DNA of 35,559 bases, taken from IMG/VR virus record IMGVR_UViG_3300025099_000068, positions 1 through 35,559 of that record. The stretch is one strand, 5' to 3'. This document shows positions 90-35,509 of the stretch, piece after piece; position 1 is the first letter of the stretch; every line of letters begins with the position of its first letter. The notes under the pieces were generated by a model, which was given only the letters and a program-made list of their open reading frames with translations, did not search any database and was not told where the DNA came from. The DNA comes from a virus. The translations under genes were made by a program, and so were the position numbers.

Positions 90-106
90 AGAACCTCCTC
101 AGTTCC
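90..106 (-). promoter_or_regulatory. RBS-hairpin element, copy 1
   Basis: On the minus strand it reads GGAAC-TGAGGAG-GTTCT: an inverted repeat with one G-U pair holding the Shine-Dalgarno AGGAG in its loop, just upstream of the ATG at 86. It is one of six related copies in the left gene cluster. Confidence 0.65.
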
Positions 107-306
107 TAAGCACCGATCAGAATTTCTGACCTTAAGCGCCCTTCAGTTTGAATACGATTCTTCAAACACCATTTCAACTCATTAATATCCGCCATATTCA
201 TTTCATAGACGGCTTTTTCGTTAGCCTCATCGCAAGAATCAGCCTCGATCTCTATCTGTTCAGTTAGCACCCATGTGTACTGAACAGTTACAAAGTGTTT
301 ACTCAT
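106..306 (-). CDS. Small hypothetical protein (66 aa)
   Basis: 66 residues, acidic, with no motif I recognise. The N-terminal part (about residues 5-25) looks like beta strands rich in V, T and I, followed by a helix rich in E and A. The ATG at 306 overlaps the stop of the upstream gene (ends 303) in an ATGA arrangement, so translation is probably coupled. AGGAGGTTCTGAGAA precedes the start and lies within the 3' end of the upstream gene. Its own stop lies inside RBS-hairpin element copy 1. Function unknown. Confidence 0.7.
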   Translation of the reverse strand: MSKHFVTVQYTWVLTEQIEIEADSCDEANEKAVYEMNMADINELKWCLKNRIQTEGRLRSEILIGA

Positions 307-551
307 TTCTCAGAACCTCCTAAAACAACTCTGAATCCCGCAGGGAACTCCTCAAAAAATTCTTCTTTACCCATTTCGTTAGTGGTGTAAATAGCAACTA
401 TTCCATTTGAAAAAGGTGTTGCCATAAAACGGATACCAGTCACAAAAGTAGATTCATCTTTTAATTGAGTAGGTCCGTCTTGTCCGCCAATCAGACCAAA
501 ATTCCACCACCTCCCAACTCCAATATCTCGCACACTTATTTCTTTTCTCAT
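303..551 (-). CDS. Small hypothetical protein (82 aa)
   Basis: 82 residues, starting MRKEISVRDIGVGRWW and ending GGSEK. The sequence alternates hydrophobic and polar stretches and probably forms a small beta-rich fold; no family recognised. The ATG at 551 overlaps the stop of the 42-aa gene upstream (TAATG), and the SD (GTGAGGTTCAGTA) lies in that gene's last codons. Its last codons carry the AGGAGG used by the next gene. Function unknown. Confidence 0.7.
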   Translation of the reverse strand: MRKEISVRDIGVGRWWNFGLIGGQDGPTQLKDESTFVTGIRFMATPFSNGIVAIYTTNEMGKEEFFEEFPAGFRVVLGGSEK

Positions 552-679
552 TACTGAACCTCACTTTCAAATGCTTTATCGCAAAACAGAGAGTGCCGTG
601 TGTTCCCCTTGCAGTCGTTACAAGGTAGTGGGGCTTTCCAGTTACGATAAGTTTTCCAAATCTTGTATGTAAATTTCAT
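551..679 (-). CDS. Very small Cys-pair protein (42 aa)
   Basis: A 42-codon leftward ORF from ATG 679 to TAA 551. It is basic and aromatic at the N terminus (MKFTYKIWKTYRNWK), followed by C20, C23 and C33 in a C-x2-C-x9-C pattern that could bind zinc, although a fourth ligand is only guessed (H29). A full RBS-hairpin element (683-698) precedes the ATG, and the stop overlaps the next ATG as TAATG. Both flanking signals argue that this very short gene is translated. Function unknown. Confidence 0.6.
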   Translation of the reverse strand: MKFTYKIWKTYRNWKAPLPCNDCKGNTRHSLFCDKAFESEVQ

Positions 680-682
680 TTC

Positions 683-698
683 AGAACCTCCTAGTTCT
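683..698 (-). promoter_or_regulatory. RBS-hairpin element, copy 2
   Basis: Minus-strand AGAAC-TAGGAG-GTTCT: a perfect 5-bp inverted repeat with AGGAG in the loop, followed by GAA and the ATG at 679. Its loop is 6 nt where three of the other copies have the same 7-nt loop TTAGGAG. Confidence 0.65.
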
Positions 699-901
699 TA
701 AAAGTTCTCGCCACACCAAGCGACTAGAACATCTTTTACTTGCATAAATTCGCCATAATCAAAATCTGATTTCAGCAAAGTTTTCGACTCACCAATAAGA
801 CGCTTGGCCTCACTCATGAACTCTTCCTCATCACATAGTTGCCACTCATCTATAAGCGTTTCACCCGCAACCATGCTGACCAATAACTGACCTTTATTCA
901 T
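698..901 (-). CDS. Small acidic hypothetical protein (67 aa)
   Basis: 67 residues starting MNKGQLLVSMVAGE and ending VAWCGENF. The frame is open further upstream, but the ATG at 901 is chosen because RBS-hairpin element copy 3 (905-921) sits directly upstream; the longer reading would translate this element as ENLGGSV. Mostly acidic and helical, with two Cys residues far apart. No known domain recognised. Confidence 0.7.
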   Translation of the reverse strand: MNKGQLLVSMVAGETLIDEWQLCDEEEFMSEAKRLIGESKTLLKSDFDYGEFMQVKDVLVAWCGENF

Positions 902-904
902 TAC

Positions 905-921
905 AGAACCTCCTAAGTTCT
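905..921 (-). promoter_or_regulatory. RBS-hairpin element, copy 3
   Basis: Minus-strand AGAAC-TTAGGAG-GTTCT followed by GTA and the ATG at 901. It is a perfect 5-bp inverted repeat with the SD in a 7-nt loop, the commonest form of this family. Confidence 0.7.
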
Positions 922-984
922 CTAAATAGCATCCATCATTAGACACTAGGAACAACACCACCTCAGCGATGTCGAACCCACTAC

Positions 985-1194
985 CTACGATGCGACCATC
1001 GTCAACGGTTGAGGCTTGAACCTTGCCAACTGTGCACAACCACCCTCACGAATGATTACCCTGCAGAAACCCTCAGCGCCTGCTCTGTCGGATGGGTGAA
1101 AGAAAGTGAATTTGTCATTATCCATTTCAGTCATTTCCCAACCATCGTTCATAATCGTGACCTTTTCGTTATAAGTCACTATCCATTTATCCAT
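985..1194 (-). CDS. Small hypothetical protein (69 aa)
   Basis: 69 residues starting MDKWIVTYNEKVTIMN. The first half looks like a beta hairpin rich in aromatics; the C-terminal part is basic. No known family recognised. The ATG at 1194 is preceded by RBS-hairpin copy 4 (1200-1216). About 80 nt without a gene separate its stop from the start of the next leftward gene at 901. Function unknown. Confidence 0.65.
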   Translation of the reverse strand: MDKWIVTYNEKVTIMNDGWEMTEMDNDKFTFFHPSDRAGAEGFCRVIIREGGCAQLARFKPQPLTMVAS

Positions 1195-1199
1195 TATTC

Positions 1200-1216
1200 A
1201 GAACCTCCTAAGTTCC
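1200..1216 (-). promoter_or_regulatory. RBS-hairpin element, copy 4
   Basis: Minus-strand GGAAC-TTAGGAG-GTTCT upstream of the ATG at 1194. Four Watson-Crick pairs plus one G-U pair close the same 7-nt SD loop as copies 3 and 5. Confidence 0.65.
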
Positions 1217-1269
1217 ATATCGTTTAATGTTATGTATTCCTAAATATTCGCTAATCAAGCTTTTTTCAG

Positions 1270-1554
1270 TTACCTAATCACCTCCCCACATCCGCCACAC
1301 CCGCCAGAATCCATATCATGAAATATCACTTTTGGGAATCGATCACTATCAAAAGAATCCTCACGATATCGATCTAGACCTATTCCACTAGCCCAACCAT
1401 CAAGCATTTCCTCCACAGTCAACACGTAGCCTGCGTGCTTGGTTTTACCTCCTGCCGCATACAGTTGGTCACATAGTGCAGTCTTAAAACAACTACGGCA
1501 CCAATTATCAGCCTGATACGTGTACCCGACTATTTCGTCGAACGTGGTCGCCAT
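1270..1554 (-). CDS. Hypothetical protein with Cys clusters (94 aa)
   Basis: 94 residues. C19, C22 and C28 lie in an N-terminal cluster (NWCRSCFKTALC), and a second Cys pair sits in the Gly-rich C terminus (GGCGGCG), so a metal site built from both ends is plausible. No named domain recognised. Unlike most of its neighbours it lacks the RBS-hairpin; the SD-like GCAGGTG overlaps the end of the upstream gene, which stops 3 nt away at 1557. It is probably co-translated with that gene. Confidence 0.65.
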   Translation of the reverse strand: MATTFDEIVGYTYQADNWCRSCFKTALCDQLYAAGGKTKHAGYVLTVEEMLDGWASGIGLDRYREDSFDSDRFPKVIFHDMDSGGCGGCGEVIR

Positions 1555-1556
1555 AA

Positions 1557-2054
1557 CTACGCACCTGCCTTTACTGAATCATCGACGAAAGAATCACAAA
1601 AGATAGTGCCGCAAACAGTCCCGCCATCCTTAGCGGGAAGAGGACACGCCACACATCGACGTTCGCCACGATCATTGAACGCCACCTCATACCGTTCCCT
1701 AACGTCATGTTCGAGGGCACAGAACGCCACTCGTGCGGTTATATCTTCATAGGTAGCCTGTCCGCCGTATTTATTAGTTGCTAAATCTTCAGCGCTGAAA
1801 AGATCTTGCCAAGCATCCTTAGCGGCACCAGAACAGAACGCCATAATTTTTGAGTGGTGATAGGTGAAAGTTATCTCTTGACTGTTATCGATAGTTTCCC
1901 AGAGATAGTCATGTAGTTGCTCTTCGATTGCCTCCAAGCATCGTTGAAAGTTGTTCCCCTCATCATTCAATTCAGTTAGCGCATCGTTTACACGATCCCC
2001 GACTGACTCAGCGAGGCGATCTACTGCCTCGTCGTATTCCTTTTGTGTTTCCAT
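1557..2054 (-). CDS. Hypothetical protein, first gene of the left leftward operon (165 aa)
   Basis: 165 residues starting METQKEYDEAVDRL. The N-terminal half is acidic and helical (about 1-60). The C-terminal part has several Cys residues (RRCVACPLPAKDGGTVC) that could bind a metal. The ATG at 2054 is chosen over an upstream ATG at 2102 because RBS-hairpin copy 5 (2058-2074) lies directly upstream and would otherwise be translated as ENLGGSE. The conserved early-leader element (2079-2092) lies 24 nt upstream of the start. Function unknown. Confidence 0.7.
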   Translation of the reverse strand: METQKEYDEAVDRLAESVGDRVNDALTELNDEGNNFQRCLEAIEEQLHDYLWETIDNSQEITFTYHHSKIMAFCSGAAKDAWQDLFSAEDLATNKYGGQATYEDITARVAFCALEHDVRERYEVAFNDRGERRCVACPLPAKDGGTVCGTIFCDSFVDDSVKAGA

Positions 2055-2057
2055 TTC

Positions 2058-2074
2058 AGAACCTCCTAAGTTCT
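2058..2074 (-). promoter_or_regulatory. RBS-hairpin element, copy 5
   Basis: Minus-strand AGAAC-TTAGGAG-GTTCT, a perfect 5-bp inverted repeat with the SD in the loop, followed by GAA and the ATG at 2054. It is identical in its 17-nt core to copy 3. Confidence 0.7.
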
Positions 2075-29639: not shown

Positions 29640-29857
29640 TTGATATTCACCACACTCCAACAAAAATCTGAACCATCAGCTTCTTCAAACAATTCTGAAA
29701 ACTCATCTGAATCTTCCATCGCAAAAGCGTCATGGTTTTGGCAATACACATCAGAAATAAACCCTGCGGCGAATCCTTCTTTCAACCATTCCCAAAGTTC
29801 TTTACTCCGATTTGGTTCTTCAGGGAAATACTCTTGTCTTTTCTCTAAATCGTTCAT
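29633..29857 (-). CDS. Small phage protein with C-x2-H and Cys motif (74 aa)
   Basis: 74 residues. A helical N-terminal part (LEKRQEYFPEEPNRSKELWE) is followed by GFISDVYCQNHDAFAM (C39-x2-H42) and DGSDFCW (C66). This order, a Cys/His pair then an acidic helix then G-D-x-C, recurs in small actinophage proteins of unknown function. ATG 29857 is chosen for its ATGA overlap with the WhiB stop. Metal binding is possible. Confidence 0.55.
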   Translation of the reverse strand: MNDLEKRQEYFPEEPNRSKELWEWLKEGFAAGFISDVYCQNHDAFAMEDSDEFSELFEEADGSDFCWSVVNIKW

Positions 29858-30204
29858 GCCGCTTTGTTCTTCCTTTTCCATAATTGTTTATGCTCCCATC
29901 TGCAAAAATTTTGACCAGGTATTTTTGGCATAAATTTCTCTCGACACTCTGGACATTCAACTGGTTTCCATAAATCGAAGTCTTTTGAAACAGCCAGCTT
30001 CACTCTTGTTCTTTGCGACGTTCCGCCAAACACTCCCCAGAAATTTTCTGTTTCAACCGCCCACTTCAAACACTCCTGCTGAACATCACAGTTAGCGCAA
30101 ATTTTGAGCGCTTCTGTGGGGGCGTACATGCCGCCTTCAGGGAAAAACAATTCAGTGTCAGCGTCTTTACAATTAGCTTTACTCAACCATTTTTCTTCTA
30201 CCAT
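29854..30204 (-). CDS. whiB: WhiB-family transcription factor with C-terminal zinc-finger-like motif
   Basis: 116 residues. The WhiB domain (about 5-70) has four Cys, C12, C36, C39 and C45 (ICANCDVQQEC), which bind a 4Fe-4S cluster, and GVFGGTSQ (57-64), a variant of the WhiB G[VI]WGG turn. The C-terminal part has C84-x2-C87 and C101-x3-H105, an additional zinc-finger-like pattern. WhiB proteins bind the host sigma factor and regulate transcription; phage copies can alter host division or superinfection. Overlaps the nuclease gene upstream by ATGGTAG. Confidence 0.88.
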   Translation of the reverse strand: MVEEKWLSKANCKDADTELFFPEGGMYAPTEALKICANCDVQQECLKWAVETENFWGVFGGTSQRTRVKLAVSKDFDLWKPVECPECREKFMPKIPGQNFCRWEHKQLWKRKNKAA

Positions 30205-32506: not shown

Positions 32507-33502
32507 CTACTCCTTAATTCCGTATGTATAGGGACTATCATTTAATTGAGACTTACGCAAAGCCCTAGCGCTCAAAAAAGAACCCAAAGTATCTGCATAA
32601 CCTCTCGTAGTTTCCAACGAGGTGTGACCCAACATGTCAGCAGTAACCTCCAACGGCACACCAGCCTTCAACAAATTCGTCGCACAAGAATGACGCAACT
32701 TATGAGGCGTGAACCCAGCCTGGATAATATCGTTACGGTAAAAAACCTTATTCAAATACTCTGCTCTAGGAACACCCATACCATCGTCACAGCGCTCCAC
32801 AACACGCTTATCAGGATACGCACGACGCTTCAACAACAACTGAAACCAACGCTCACTCGCCCCCCTCGAATCAAAACCCTGCCTGTGCTGATCCTCAACA
32901 ATAATGTCCACCATCGTCGCATAAGGAACCCTCTGCTCCCTCGACTGACCCTTCGTAGCCTTACGCTTAGCGACAAGCTCCTCAGAAGAAATATCGCAAC
33001 CACGCAACCGAACAATCTCAATCGGTCTTAAACCAACCCAGAAACCCAAACCCAAAGCGACACGAACATTGTCATCCAAAAATCTGTTCCACGCATTGTA
33101 AAACAACGGATCAGGAACAGGCGACGGATTCTGCCAACGATTATTAGGAACCTCAACACCAGCCATCAAAAAACGATCCGTTAAACCATTCTCCCAACAC
33201 CAACGATAAAAACCAGACAACGTAACTAGCTCACGACGCTGAGCAACAACCGAATAAGACTCGCCGCTTCTCGGCTGAGGTCTTTGAATAAAAGCATAAA
33301 AATCTTGATTAGACGGATCAGACCCATCAACACCAGAATCATACAACCATGTATTCCAAGCCTTAACCGTCGAACGGTAACTCTTAATAGTTCTTGGCGA
33401 ACGCTTAACATCATGGATCAAAAACTCAATCCAAGCCTCCACAACACCTGCAAACGACTCAGCATCAAACGCTAAATCAGTAACTCGAACTCTCTCACTC
33501 AC
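32507..33502 (-). CDS. int: Tyrosine-family integrase
   Basis: 331 residues with a SAM-like core-binding N-terminal domain (about 15-115) and a catalytic domain with R159 (GLRPIEI), K184 (ATKGQ), H267 and R270 (HKLRHS), H293 (GHTS) and nucleophile Y302 (RGYA). All expected catalytic residues are present. It would recombine attP with the bacterial attB. The GTG at 33502 (SD AAGGGA) is preferred; the in-frame ATG at 33562 adds a hydrophobic, unlikely 20-residue extension that runs through repeat DNA. attP lies directly upstream (33626-33672). Confidence 0.93.
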   Translation of the reverse strand: MSERVRVTDLAFDAESFAGVVEAWIEFLIHDVKRSPRTIKSYRSTVKAWNTWLYDSGVDGSDPSNQDFYAFIQRPQPRSGESYSVVAQRRELVTLSGFYRWCWENGLTDRFLMAGVEVPNNRWQNPSPVPDPLFYNAWNRFLDDNVRVALGLGFWVGLRPIEIVRLRGCDISSEELVAKRKATKGQSREQRVPYATMVDIIVEDQHRQGFDSRGASERWFQLLLKRRAYPDKRVVERCDDGMGVPRAEYLNKVFYRNDIIQAGFTPHKLRHSCATNLLKAGVPLEVTADMLGHTSLETTRGYADTLGSFLSARALRKSQLNDSPYTYGIKE

Positions 33503-33522
33503 AATCAATCCCTTCTGGCAAA

Positions 33523-33552
33523 AAAATGAAACCAAAATGAAACCAAAAAGAA
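33523..33552. repeat. Tandem GAAACCAAAAT repeat upstream of integrase
   Basis: An 11-bp unit (ATGAAACCAAA) occurs twice in tandem just upstream of the integrase start and close to attP. It may be an integrase arm-type binding site; otherwise nothing is visible in it. Confidence 0.35.
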
Positions 33553-33625
33553 TTGAACTCAAACGCCTCCATTTTTTCCCCTATCAAATAAGCCCGAAAA
33601 CATTAGGAAAAACAGATACTCACAG

Positions 33626-34741: not shown

Positions 34742-34926
34742 TACTGAACCTCCCATCTTATATCTATGCCTTCCATGCCAAATGTAGGCAAGTCAAAGTC
34801 GGTATGAGGGAACACTGTTGCACAGTCTCTTGAAACCCAACCAATATCGTTTGACCAATAAAGTTGCTCTTCTTCTAAATAAGAATTATCAACAGTTCCT
34901 CTTATTATCCATTCTCCATTATTCAT
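34741..34926 (-). CDS. Small hypothetical protein (61 aa)
   Basis: 61 residues, acidic and aromatic, starting MNNGEWIIRGTVDNSY and ending IRWEVQ. Looks beta-rich; no family recognised. ATG 34926 is within an identical stop/SD/start cassette (34924-34938), and its own stop overlaps the next ATG. Function unknown. Confidence 0.6.
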   Translation of the reverse strand: MNNGEWIIRGTVDNSYLEEEQLYWSNDIGWVSRDCATVFPHTDFDLPTFGMEGIDIRWEVQ

Positions 34927-34938
34927 TATTTGACCTCC
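34924..34938 (-). promoter_or_regulatory. Stop/SD/start cassette, copy 1
   Basis: Minus-strand GGAGGTCAAATAATG joins the stop of the upstream gene (EVK then TAA) to the next ATG. The SD lies inside the upstream gene's last codons. The 15-mer is identical in three places (34924, 35169, 35507). Confidence 0.65.
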
Positions 34939-35171
34939 TCAACTATGCCTCTTCCTACTAGCCAACTAACTATCTCTTGTTTGCCATATCTTGGCGTTCC
35001 AAAATCCAAGATGTAACTTCCATCAGGAAAATCGTCATAACGATATTCCCAATTCGCTATTTTCGACAGTGAACAATTCATCAAGTACGCAATATCACGC
35101 AAAGCTAAAACTTTTGATCCCGAAACTTCATCGAATTGTTCTAATCTTTCCCAAAATATGTCATTACTCAT
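34926..35171 (-). CDS. Small HTH protein, MerR/excisionase-like (81 aa)
   Basis: 81 residues. Residues 22-45 (VLALRDIAYLMNCSLSKIANW) look like the HTH of MerR/excisionase-type winged helices, followed by an aromatic segment and GKQEIVSWLVGRGIVEEVK. The family pattern (helix-turn-helix, then wing-like YILDFGTPRYGKQEI) fits a small DNA-binding protein, and an excisionase role is possible, but it lies about 1.3 kb from attP. Confidence 0.55.
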   Translation of the reverse strand: MSNDIFWERLEQFDEVSGSKVLALRDIAYLMNCSLSKIANWEYRYDDFPDGSYILDFGTPRYGKQEIVSWLVGRGIVEEVK

Positions 35172-35183
35172 TATTTGACCTCC
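35169..35183 (-). promoter_or_regulatory. Stop/SD/start cassette, copy 2
   Basis: Identical 15-mer GGAGGTCAAATAATG on the minus strand, joining the end of the 112-aa Cys-rich gene to the ATG at 35171. Confidence 0.65.
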
Positions 35184-35509
35184 TGGTCGTAGTAGTTTTT
35201 CGGTAATTTGCCTTCACAGCAATAAACACCTACTGCGAGCTGTTCAAACATCCCTTGATCCTCGTCATACTTCCCAACAACCATTTCTAGACCATCAGCA
35301 GCAACTTCTTCACCACAAATATCGCAAGGCCAAACATAACAATCTCTGCACATCCAGCCATCTTCCCAACCCATCCGATTAACCCAAAGACCAGAACCCA
35401 TAGATGTATCTCTGTCACAATCGACACAGTAATTGGATTCATTTAATGGACCTTTAACCTTTACGCCACCAATGTTTATACAAATTGAAAATCCCTTAGG
35501 TAAACTCAT
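35171..35509 (-). CDS. Cys-rich protein with four Cys pairs (112 aa)
   Basis: 112 residues from ATG 35509 (an upstream ATG at 35548 lacks the cassette). Cys pairs are C28-x2-C31, C54-x2-C57, C62-x2-C65 and a C97-C98 doublet, so at least one and probably two zinc sites are formed in the order typical of treble-clef or zinc-ribbon proteins. No family assigned. Confidence 0.65.
   Translation of the reverse strand: MSLPKGFSICINIGGVKVKGPLNESNYCVDCDRDTSMGSGLWVNRMGWEDGWMCRDCYVWPCDICGEEVAADGLEMVVGKYDEDQGMFEQLAVGVYCCEGKLPKNYYDQEVK

Follow-up and report, generated by a model that had tools for sequence, protein, structure and literature searches.

Why should the Shine-Dalgarno (SD) sequences of unrelated small viral genes be framed, time after time, by the same pair of complementary arms? 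The question is raised by the left end of the 35.6-kb virus record IMGVR_UViG_3300025099_000068 (positions 1 to 35,559, the whole stretch of DNA analysed here and referred to below as the window), in which an AGGAG SD lies between GAAC and GTTC arms on the minus strand before small early genes, up to position 2054. Comparison with related phages shows that it is the RNA shape, and not the DNA sequence, that is under selection, and that, in this set of uncultured marine phages, the hairpin distinguishes early genes from late ones.

Shine-Dalgarno hairpins at the left end of the window

The ribosome binding sites (RBSs) of the left-end small genes have the element GAAC-TTAGGAG-GTTC in common, with the window consensus AGAACTTAGGAGGTTCT. 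A scan of the window found four copies of the 17-mer GAACTTAGGAGGTTCTG, none with more than one mismatch (89-105, 904-920, 1199-1215 and 2057-2073); chance predicts 0.13 matches with up to three mismatches, and four copies were reached in none of 100 shuffles. In the fifth copy, at 683-698, the loop is one base shorter than in the other four. An earlier note on this DNA had described these five elements, all of which are present and lie on the minus strand, and had assigned AGAAC/GTTCT arms to each. The full arms are restricted to 683-698, 905-921 and 2058-2074, while the copies at about 91-105 and 1201-1215 pair through GAAC/GTTC only (4 bp). A half-copy before the ATG at 306 was correctly recognised, its left arm being absent. 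The RBS at 555-569, missing from that list, is a variant of which two further copies stand before other genes in a near-identical contig (L004). The elements at this end of the window are as follows.

91..105, minus strand: SD hairpin GAAC(TGAGGAG)GTTC, before the gene running off the left window end
311..325, minus strand: half-copy TTTTAGGAGGTTCTG, before the ATG at 306; right half only, without a pairing left arm
555..569, minus strand: variant SD hairpin TGAA(AGTGAGG)TTCA, before the ATG at 551
683..698, minus strand: SD hairpin AGAAC(TAGGAG)GTTCT, before the ATG at 679
905..921, minus strand: SD hairpin AGAAC(TTAGGAG)GTTCT, before the ATG at 901
1201..1215, minus strand: SD hairpin GAAC(TTAGGAG)GTTC, before the ATG at 1194
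2058..2074, minus strand: SD hairpin AGAAC(TTAGGAG)GTTCT, before the ATG at 2054

The pattern AGAACNNAGGAGNNGTTCT, which is in the wrong register, gave two matches, the chance level. The exact core GAACTTAGGAGGTTC also precedes an ATG in other viral contigs, in one context in seven of them (L001, L002, L003, L006, L007, L008 and L009) and in another context in two (L005 and L010). Because the arms are nearly constant, the window alone cannot tell an RNA hairpin, a DNA site and a copied cassette apart, and relatives were gathered for this reason.

Pairing is kept while the letters of the stem change

The relatives, about 190 marine phage contigs in total and all of them fragments, comprised 80 loci found via the window terminase, 80 via the terminase of a relative (many overlapping the first set) and 80 via the helicase of that relative, together with two loci from metagenome-assembled genomes (MAGs), one labelled Acidimicrobiaceae bacterium TMED189; the helicase of Manatee Spring podovirus, used as a query, returned no relatives. 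Genes were called by a simple script, on which the gene starts depend, and were kept if GGAG stood at RBS distance, near-duplicates being removed. Those on the strand opposite the terminase, the same as the helicase, were classed as early and the rest as late, so that the class is defined by strand alone. An uninterrupted Watson-Crick stem framing the SD was scored against a null in which left flanks were permuted among genes (1000 permutations).

Among pairs of orthologous early genes, 470 retained the hairpin with arms that differed and 190 with identical arms. When both SDs were GGAG and the arms were not shared, 38% of pairs retained the hairpin versus about 4% by chance, although such pairs are not independent. 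In L205 and L215, for example, orthologs with 82% protein identity carry TGTCA/TGACA and CGTCA/TGACG, respectively. The same freedom is seen within the single genome represented by L104 and L105, where a constant loop, TGGGAG, is closed by CGAC/GTCG, TGAC/GTCA, TAGAC/GTCTA, AATAC/GTATT or GAAC/GTTC; on the structural (minus) strand of L104, none of the called genes had a stem of at least 4 bp.

When 4-bp stems were scanned by register, an excess was seen only where the loop brackets GGAG: 28 stems with an NN-GGAG loop, 19 with N-GGAGG and 12 with NNN-GGAG, each against 1.6 expected, with other registers near 1. The third pair of the stem is used almost evenly in framed genes (GC 27, TA 24, AT 22, CG 20), and the fourth is GC in 33, CG in 24, AT in 19 and TA in 17. 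Because orthologs keep pairing with different arms, stems are in excess only in registers that bracket GGAG and the outer stem pairs are almost evenly used, selection acts on the RNA shape. Thus, the check proposed in the earlier note, a search of relatives for compensatory stem changes, was strongly positive, and its view that the element is selected as a unit is borne out by the pairing kept in relatives. The outcome that it named as a refutation, a conserved SD without conserved arms, does occur as far as the letters go; the pairing persists.

The hairpin marks early genes

Among the 359 early genes, stems of at least 4 bp were present in 93 (14.7 expected, permutation maximum 27) and stems of at least 5 bp in 49 (3.9 expected, maximum 11), values attained in 0/1000 permutations in either case. 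The corresponding numbers for 147 late genes, 9 versus 6.8 and 5 versus 2.0 expected, were not significant. The effect is thus 6- to 12-fold and limited to one register and one gene class; because the sequences in the data set are related, the permutation counts are not exact probabilities. In individual contigs up to 8/11 (L091), 8/12 (L136) or 9/16 (L132) early genes carry the hairpin, and the late genes of these contigs have none. Framing also depends on the type of SD: GGAG is framed in 93 of about 360 early genes, and the non-GGAG classes HGGAH (1/76) and HGAGG (3/40) are each close to expectation.

No significant excess of SD hairpins was found in T7, the first 50 kb of T4, pelagiphage HTVC010P or Manatee Spring podovirus, nor in ten TMED189 MAG contigs, which represent the putative host genome (an assignment for which the basis is a WhiB gene together with a single MAG contig), or in the phage-like MAG locus L235.

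Geometry and predicted folding

The element consists of a 4-6 bp stem and a 4-8 nt loop around a strong SD (GGAGG, mostly GGAGGU): GGAGG is present in 94% of framed versus 54% of other genes, and T follows it in 80% versus 30%. The spacing from SD to start is similar in framed and other genes, and the base of the stem lies mostly 1-5 nt 5′ of the start codon. The stems have a median energy of -3.0 kcal/mol at 37 C, which becomes -5.8 at 15 C. In partition-function folding with an 85-nt context, GGA is unpaired with a probability of 0.77-0.79 in framed genes versus 0.47-0.65 in non-framed genes, the fourth G of framed genes with 0.45 and bases +4 to +6 with 0.08-0.14. Because GGA is open and positions +4 to +6 are paired, the loop displays GGA and the stem holds the rest of the SD (GGU).

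In the relatives, the gaps upstream of early genes often contain longer stems. Perfect Watson-Crick stems of at least 9 bp precede 84 of the 219 early genes with gaps of at least 50 nt (shuffled mean 0.6) and 16 of 64 late genes, with examples upstream of 280 in L218, 1087 in L216 and 2732 in L155. They lie a median of 19 nt before the SD and a U-run is rare; the stems vary and some loops recur (GAACGAAGTGA, CTCATTTATGA). They are possibly RNA-processing sites or leader structures.

A proposed gate opened by the ribosome, and its alternatives

We propose that the hairpin is a structured translation-initiation gate at early genes that is opened by the ribosome, a reading to which we assign a probability of a little under one half (about 0.47) and in which we infer both the ribosome as reader and the effect on translation. 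The hairpin would then act in cis, as RNA, where translation starts; nothing in it is conserved except its shape and the SD, the letters of the stem being free. GGA in the apical loop would offer a toehold on which the anti-SD end of 16S rRNA lands before it invades the weak stem, completes pairing with GGAGGU and frees the start codon. A local hairpin of this kind might also shield the SD against pairing with the RNA around it, and it would impose one initiation rule on separately translated early genes and not on late genes. Reading by the ribosome is favoured because no base of the loop outside the SD is conserved, and also by the failure of CsrA, RegB, RegA and early-protein Pfam searches to reveal a recognisable reader.

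Several observations weigh against this proposal. Averaged over six SD positions, openness in hairpin genes is about that of non-hairpin genes and no higher, so the hairpin is not simply an aid to accessibility. For the window copies, ViennaRNA lengthens the stem into the loop through U-G and U-A pairs, leaving AGG open, and in its 85-nt context the copy at 683-698 is predicted to form a longer competing stem instead. The five window copies themselves show no covariation. Loss is frequent, the hairpin being absent from one partner in 778 ortholog pairs. Finally, the early/late split favours a regulatory reading, and a role confined to the ribosome does not itself explain why late genes lack the hairpin.

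The earlier note had offered a translational operator beside a ribosome-recruiting loop, and both survive the covariation test; no binding protein was found. As an operator, the loop GGA would be read by a phage or host RNA-binding protein regardless of the stem, and early genes would be switched jointly, for example off at late onset. This is a possible explanation that we nevertheless doubt. CsrA and RsmE bind hairpins in which GGA in a short loop overlaps the SD and the stem letters are largely free, an arrangement that the marine element shares, and its commonest register, C(NNGGAG)G with an A-U second pair, resembles the CsrA consensus AC(ARGGAU)GU. The early-only distribution, the open GGA with GGU in the stem and the tie between framing and GGAG are as an operator predicts, and genes of the CsrA family occur in 26/119 sampled genomes of the putative host class. 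However, loop length is fixed in CsrA/RsmE sites and ranges from 4 to 8 here, the non-SD loop bases vary too, and CsrA (PF02599) was detected in 0/20 phage records and not in the single, incomplete MAG of the putative host. RegA (PF01818) was likewise found in 0/20 phage records, in a search without a positive control, and the 25 families listed in the Pfam annotation of 104 early-protein representatives included neither an RNA-binding regulator nor an RNase. Associations of protein families with the share of hairpin genes in a contig were only weak and were confounded by relatedness.

Cleavage of the loop GGAG by a RegB-like endoribonuclease, inactivating early mRNAs, would also account for early-only placement, and RegB of T4 acts on the GGAG of early-gene SDs. 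Its small-RNA substrates need an open GGA with a constrained fourth G (PMC3014915), as is present here. The T4 sites are not conserved hairpins, however, and prefer A-rich 3′ flanks rather than stems (PMC3014915); T4 itself lacks an SD-hairpin excess in its first 50 kb, and the RegB family (PF10715) was found in 0/20 phage records, again in a search without a positive control. We regard such a cleavage site as quite improbable. A copied RBS cassette, spread with small genes by recombination and with functionless pairing, would fit the near-identical copies before unrelated window genes and the half-copy at 306. Copying cannot yield different yet complementary arms in orthologs, nor the early/late split, and as a general account it is improbable; the mobile cassette suggested in the earlier note may explain the origin of the window copies, not the group as a whole. 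The near-constant window arms would suit a palindrome in the DNA to which a repressor, or some other DNA-binding protein, attaches. As a general explanation this is ruled out by arm covariation, orthologous and unrelated early genes alike keeping the pairing with different arms, and with an SD always inside, a start codon close by and a single orientation, such a site is very unlikely indeed. An RNA thermometer, in which the SD core would be paired in the stem, is ruled out as well, because there is no stem excess in registers that bury GGAG.

Relation to start-associated sequences

The closest known layout is that of the start-associated sequences (SAS) of Cluster K mycobacteriophages, GGGATAGGAGCCC, arranged as GGG-ATAGGAG-CCC; their authors remarked on the symmetry of its outer part, described the motif as non-palindromic, proposed no hairpin and left the function open (PMC3203893), and later papers describe the role as ill-defined or unclear (PMC11373665; PMC7302621). 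In SAS as in the marine element, AGGAG lies a few nt before ATG between complementary arms (in SAS GGG/CCC, giving 3 bp of stem and 7 nt of loop), non-structural genes only are involved, upstream gaps are larger, the orientation is constant and the role is unknown (PMC3203893, PMC11373665). The marine hairpins have the RBS position near the start, the restriction to non-structural genes and the larger gaps (median 93 nt in hairpin genes versus 43 nt in others). However, SAS letters are fixed, with 12/12 copies identical in Anaya and 15/16 in Pixie (right halves scanned), whereas stem and loop of the marine element vary widely with pairing retained; a C follows the SAS, placing GGU outside the stem. 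Roughly half of the SAS are associated with an imperfect inverted repeat of 17 bp further upstream (ESAS). Anaya and Pixie have no stems of at least 5 bp around the SD, and Pixie has 5 stems of 4 bp versus 2.4 expected (39/500 permutations), a weak signal. Because the window consensus differs from the 13-bp SAS sequence GGGATAGGAGCCC by more than the two mismatches that define the family, the window element is not classed as an SAS and is merely laid out alike. The SAS of Microbacterium Cluster EF phages, GGGAAAGGACCCC, also places an SD between GGG and CCC, is repeated at translation starts and is unclear in role (PMC7302621); its letters are fixed, its SD is AAGGA rather than GGAGG, and the phages are unrelated.

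SAS have been known since 2011 without a role, and because they are fixed in sequence they cannot show covariation. Base-pair covariation in the same layout is what is new here, and it turns the matter into a testable question of RNA structure at the RBS, for which these phages supply a ready-made collection of short RBS hairpins whose stems are free. A literature search, mostly without subscription journals, turned up no prior account of phage hairpins that covary and hold the SD in the loop. A broader conjecture, which we consider unlikely, is that the hairpin is a shape-only, sequence-free translational operator uniting a phage-wide early regulon, with a trans-acting reader (a protein, an RNase or a modified ribosome) that tells early from late mRNAs; the Cluster K and EF SAS would then be frozen versions of this device.

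Genome context and other repeats

The window encodes a terminase (Terminase_6N), an SU10/P22-type portal, a DnaB-like helicase, an AEP-type primase, an integrase and a WhiB protein. The WhiB-family protein, at 29854-30204 (Pfam E 1.8e-19), fits an actinobacterial host. A tRNA-Ala gene (GGC anticodon), the sole Rfam match in the window, lies at 2576-2650, separating the early cluster from the structural genes, and is a possible attachment site for the Phage_integrase-family integrase at 32507-33562. The genes served by the left-end elements are listed below; in the scan of relatives, the 165-aa (amino acid) product was matched in a near-identical contig only.

106..306, minus strand: small early gene, 66 aa
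303..551, minus strand: small early gene, 82 aa
551..679, minus strand: small early gene, 42 aa
698..901, minus strand: small early gene, 67 aa
985..1194, minus strand: small early gene, 69 aa
1557..2054, minus strand: early gene, 165 aa

A second family of repeated start sequences is found in the same genome, where three consecutive right-end genes (34926, 35171 and 35509) have the identical RBS GGAGGTCAAATAATG; 4-bp pairing with the SD in the loop is present at two of these three sites.

34930..34942, minus strand: second-cluster SD hairpin TTGA(GGAGG)TCAA, before the ATG at 34926
35177..35188, minus strand: second-cluster SD hairpin GACC(AGGA)GGTC, before the ATG at 35171

Upstream of hairpin genes, TATA or TTGACA-like words were not clearly enriched as a local promoter motif. 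A TTAGACACCCTA-like word, occurring in the forms ttagacaccctag, ttagacaccctat and taggcaccctaga, is repeated upstream of early genes, in the window at 2081, 29339 and 34565 (reverse strand), and is a candidate promoter or operator.
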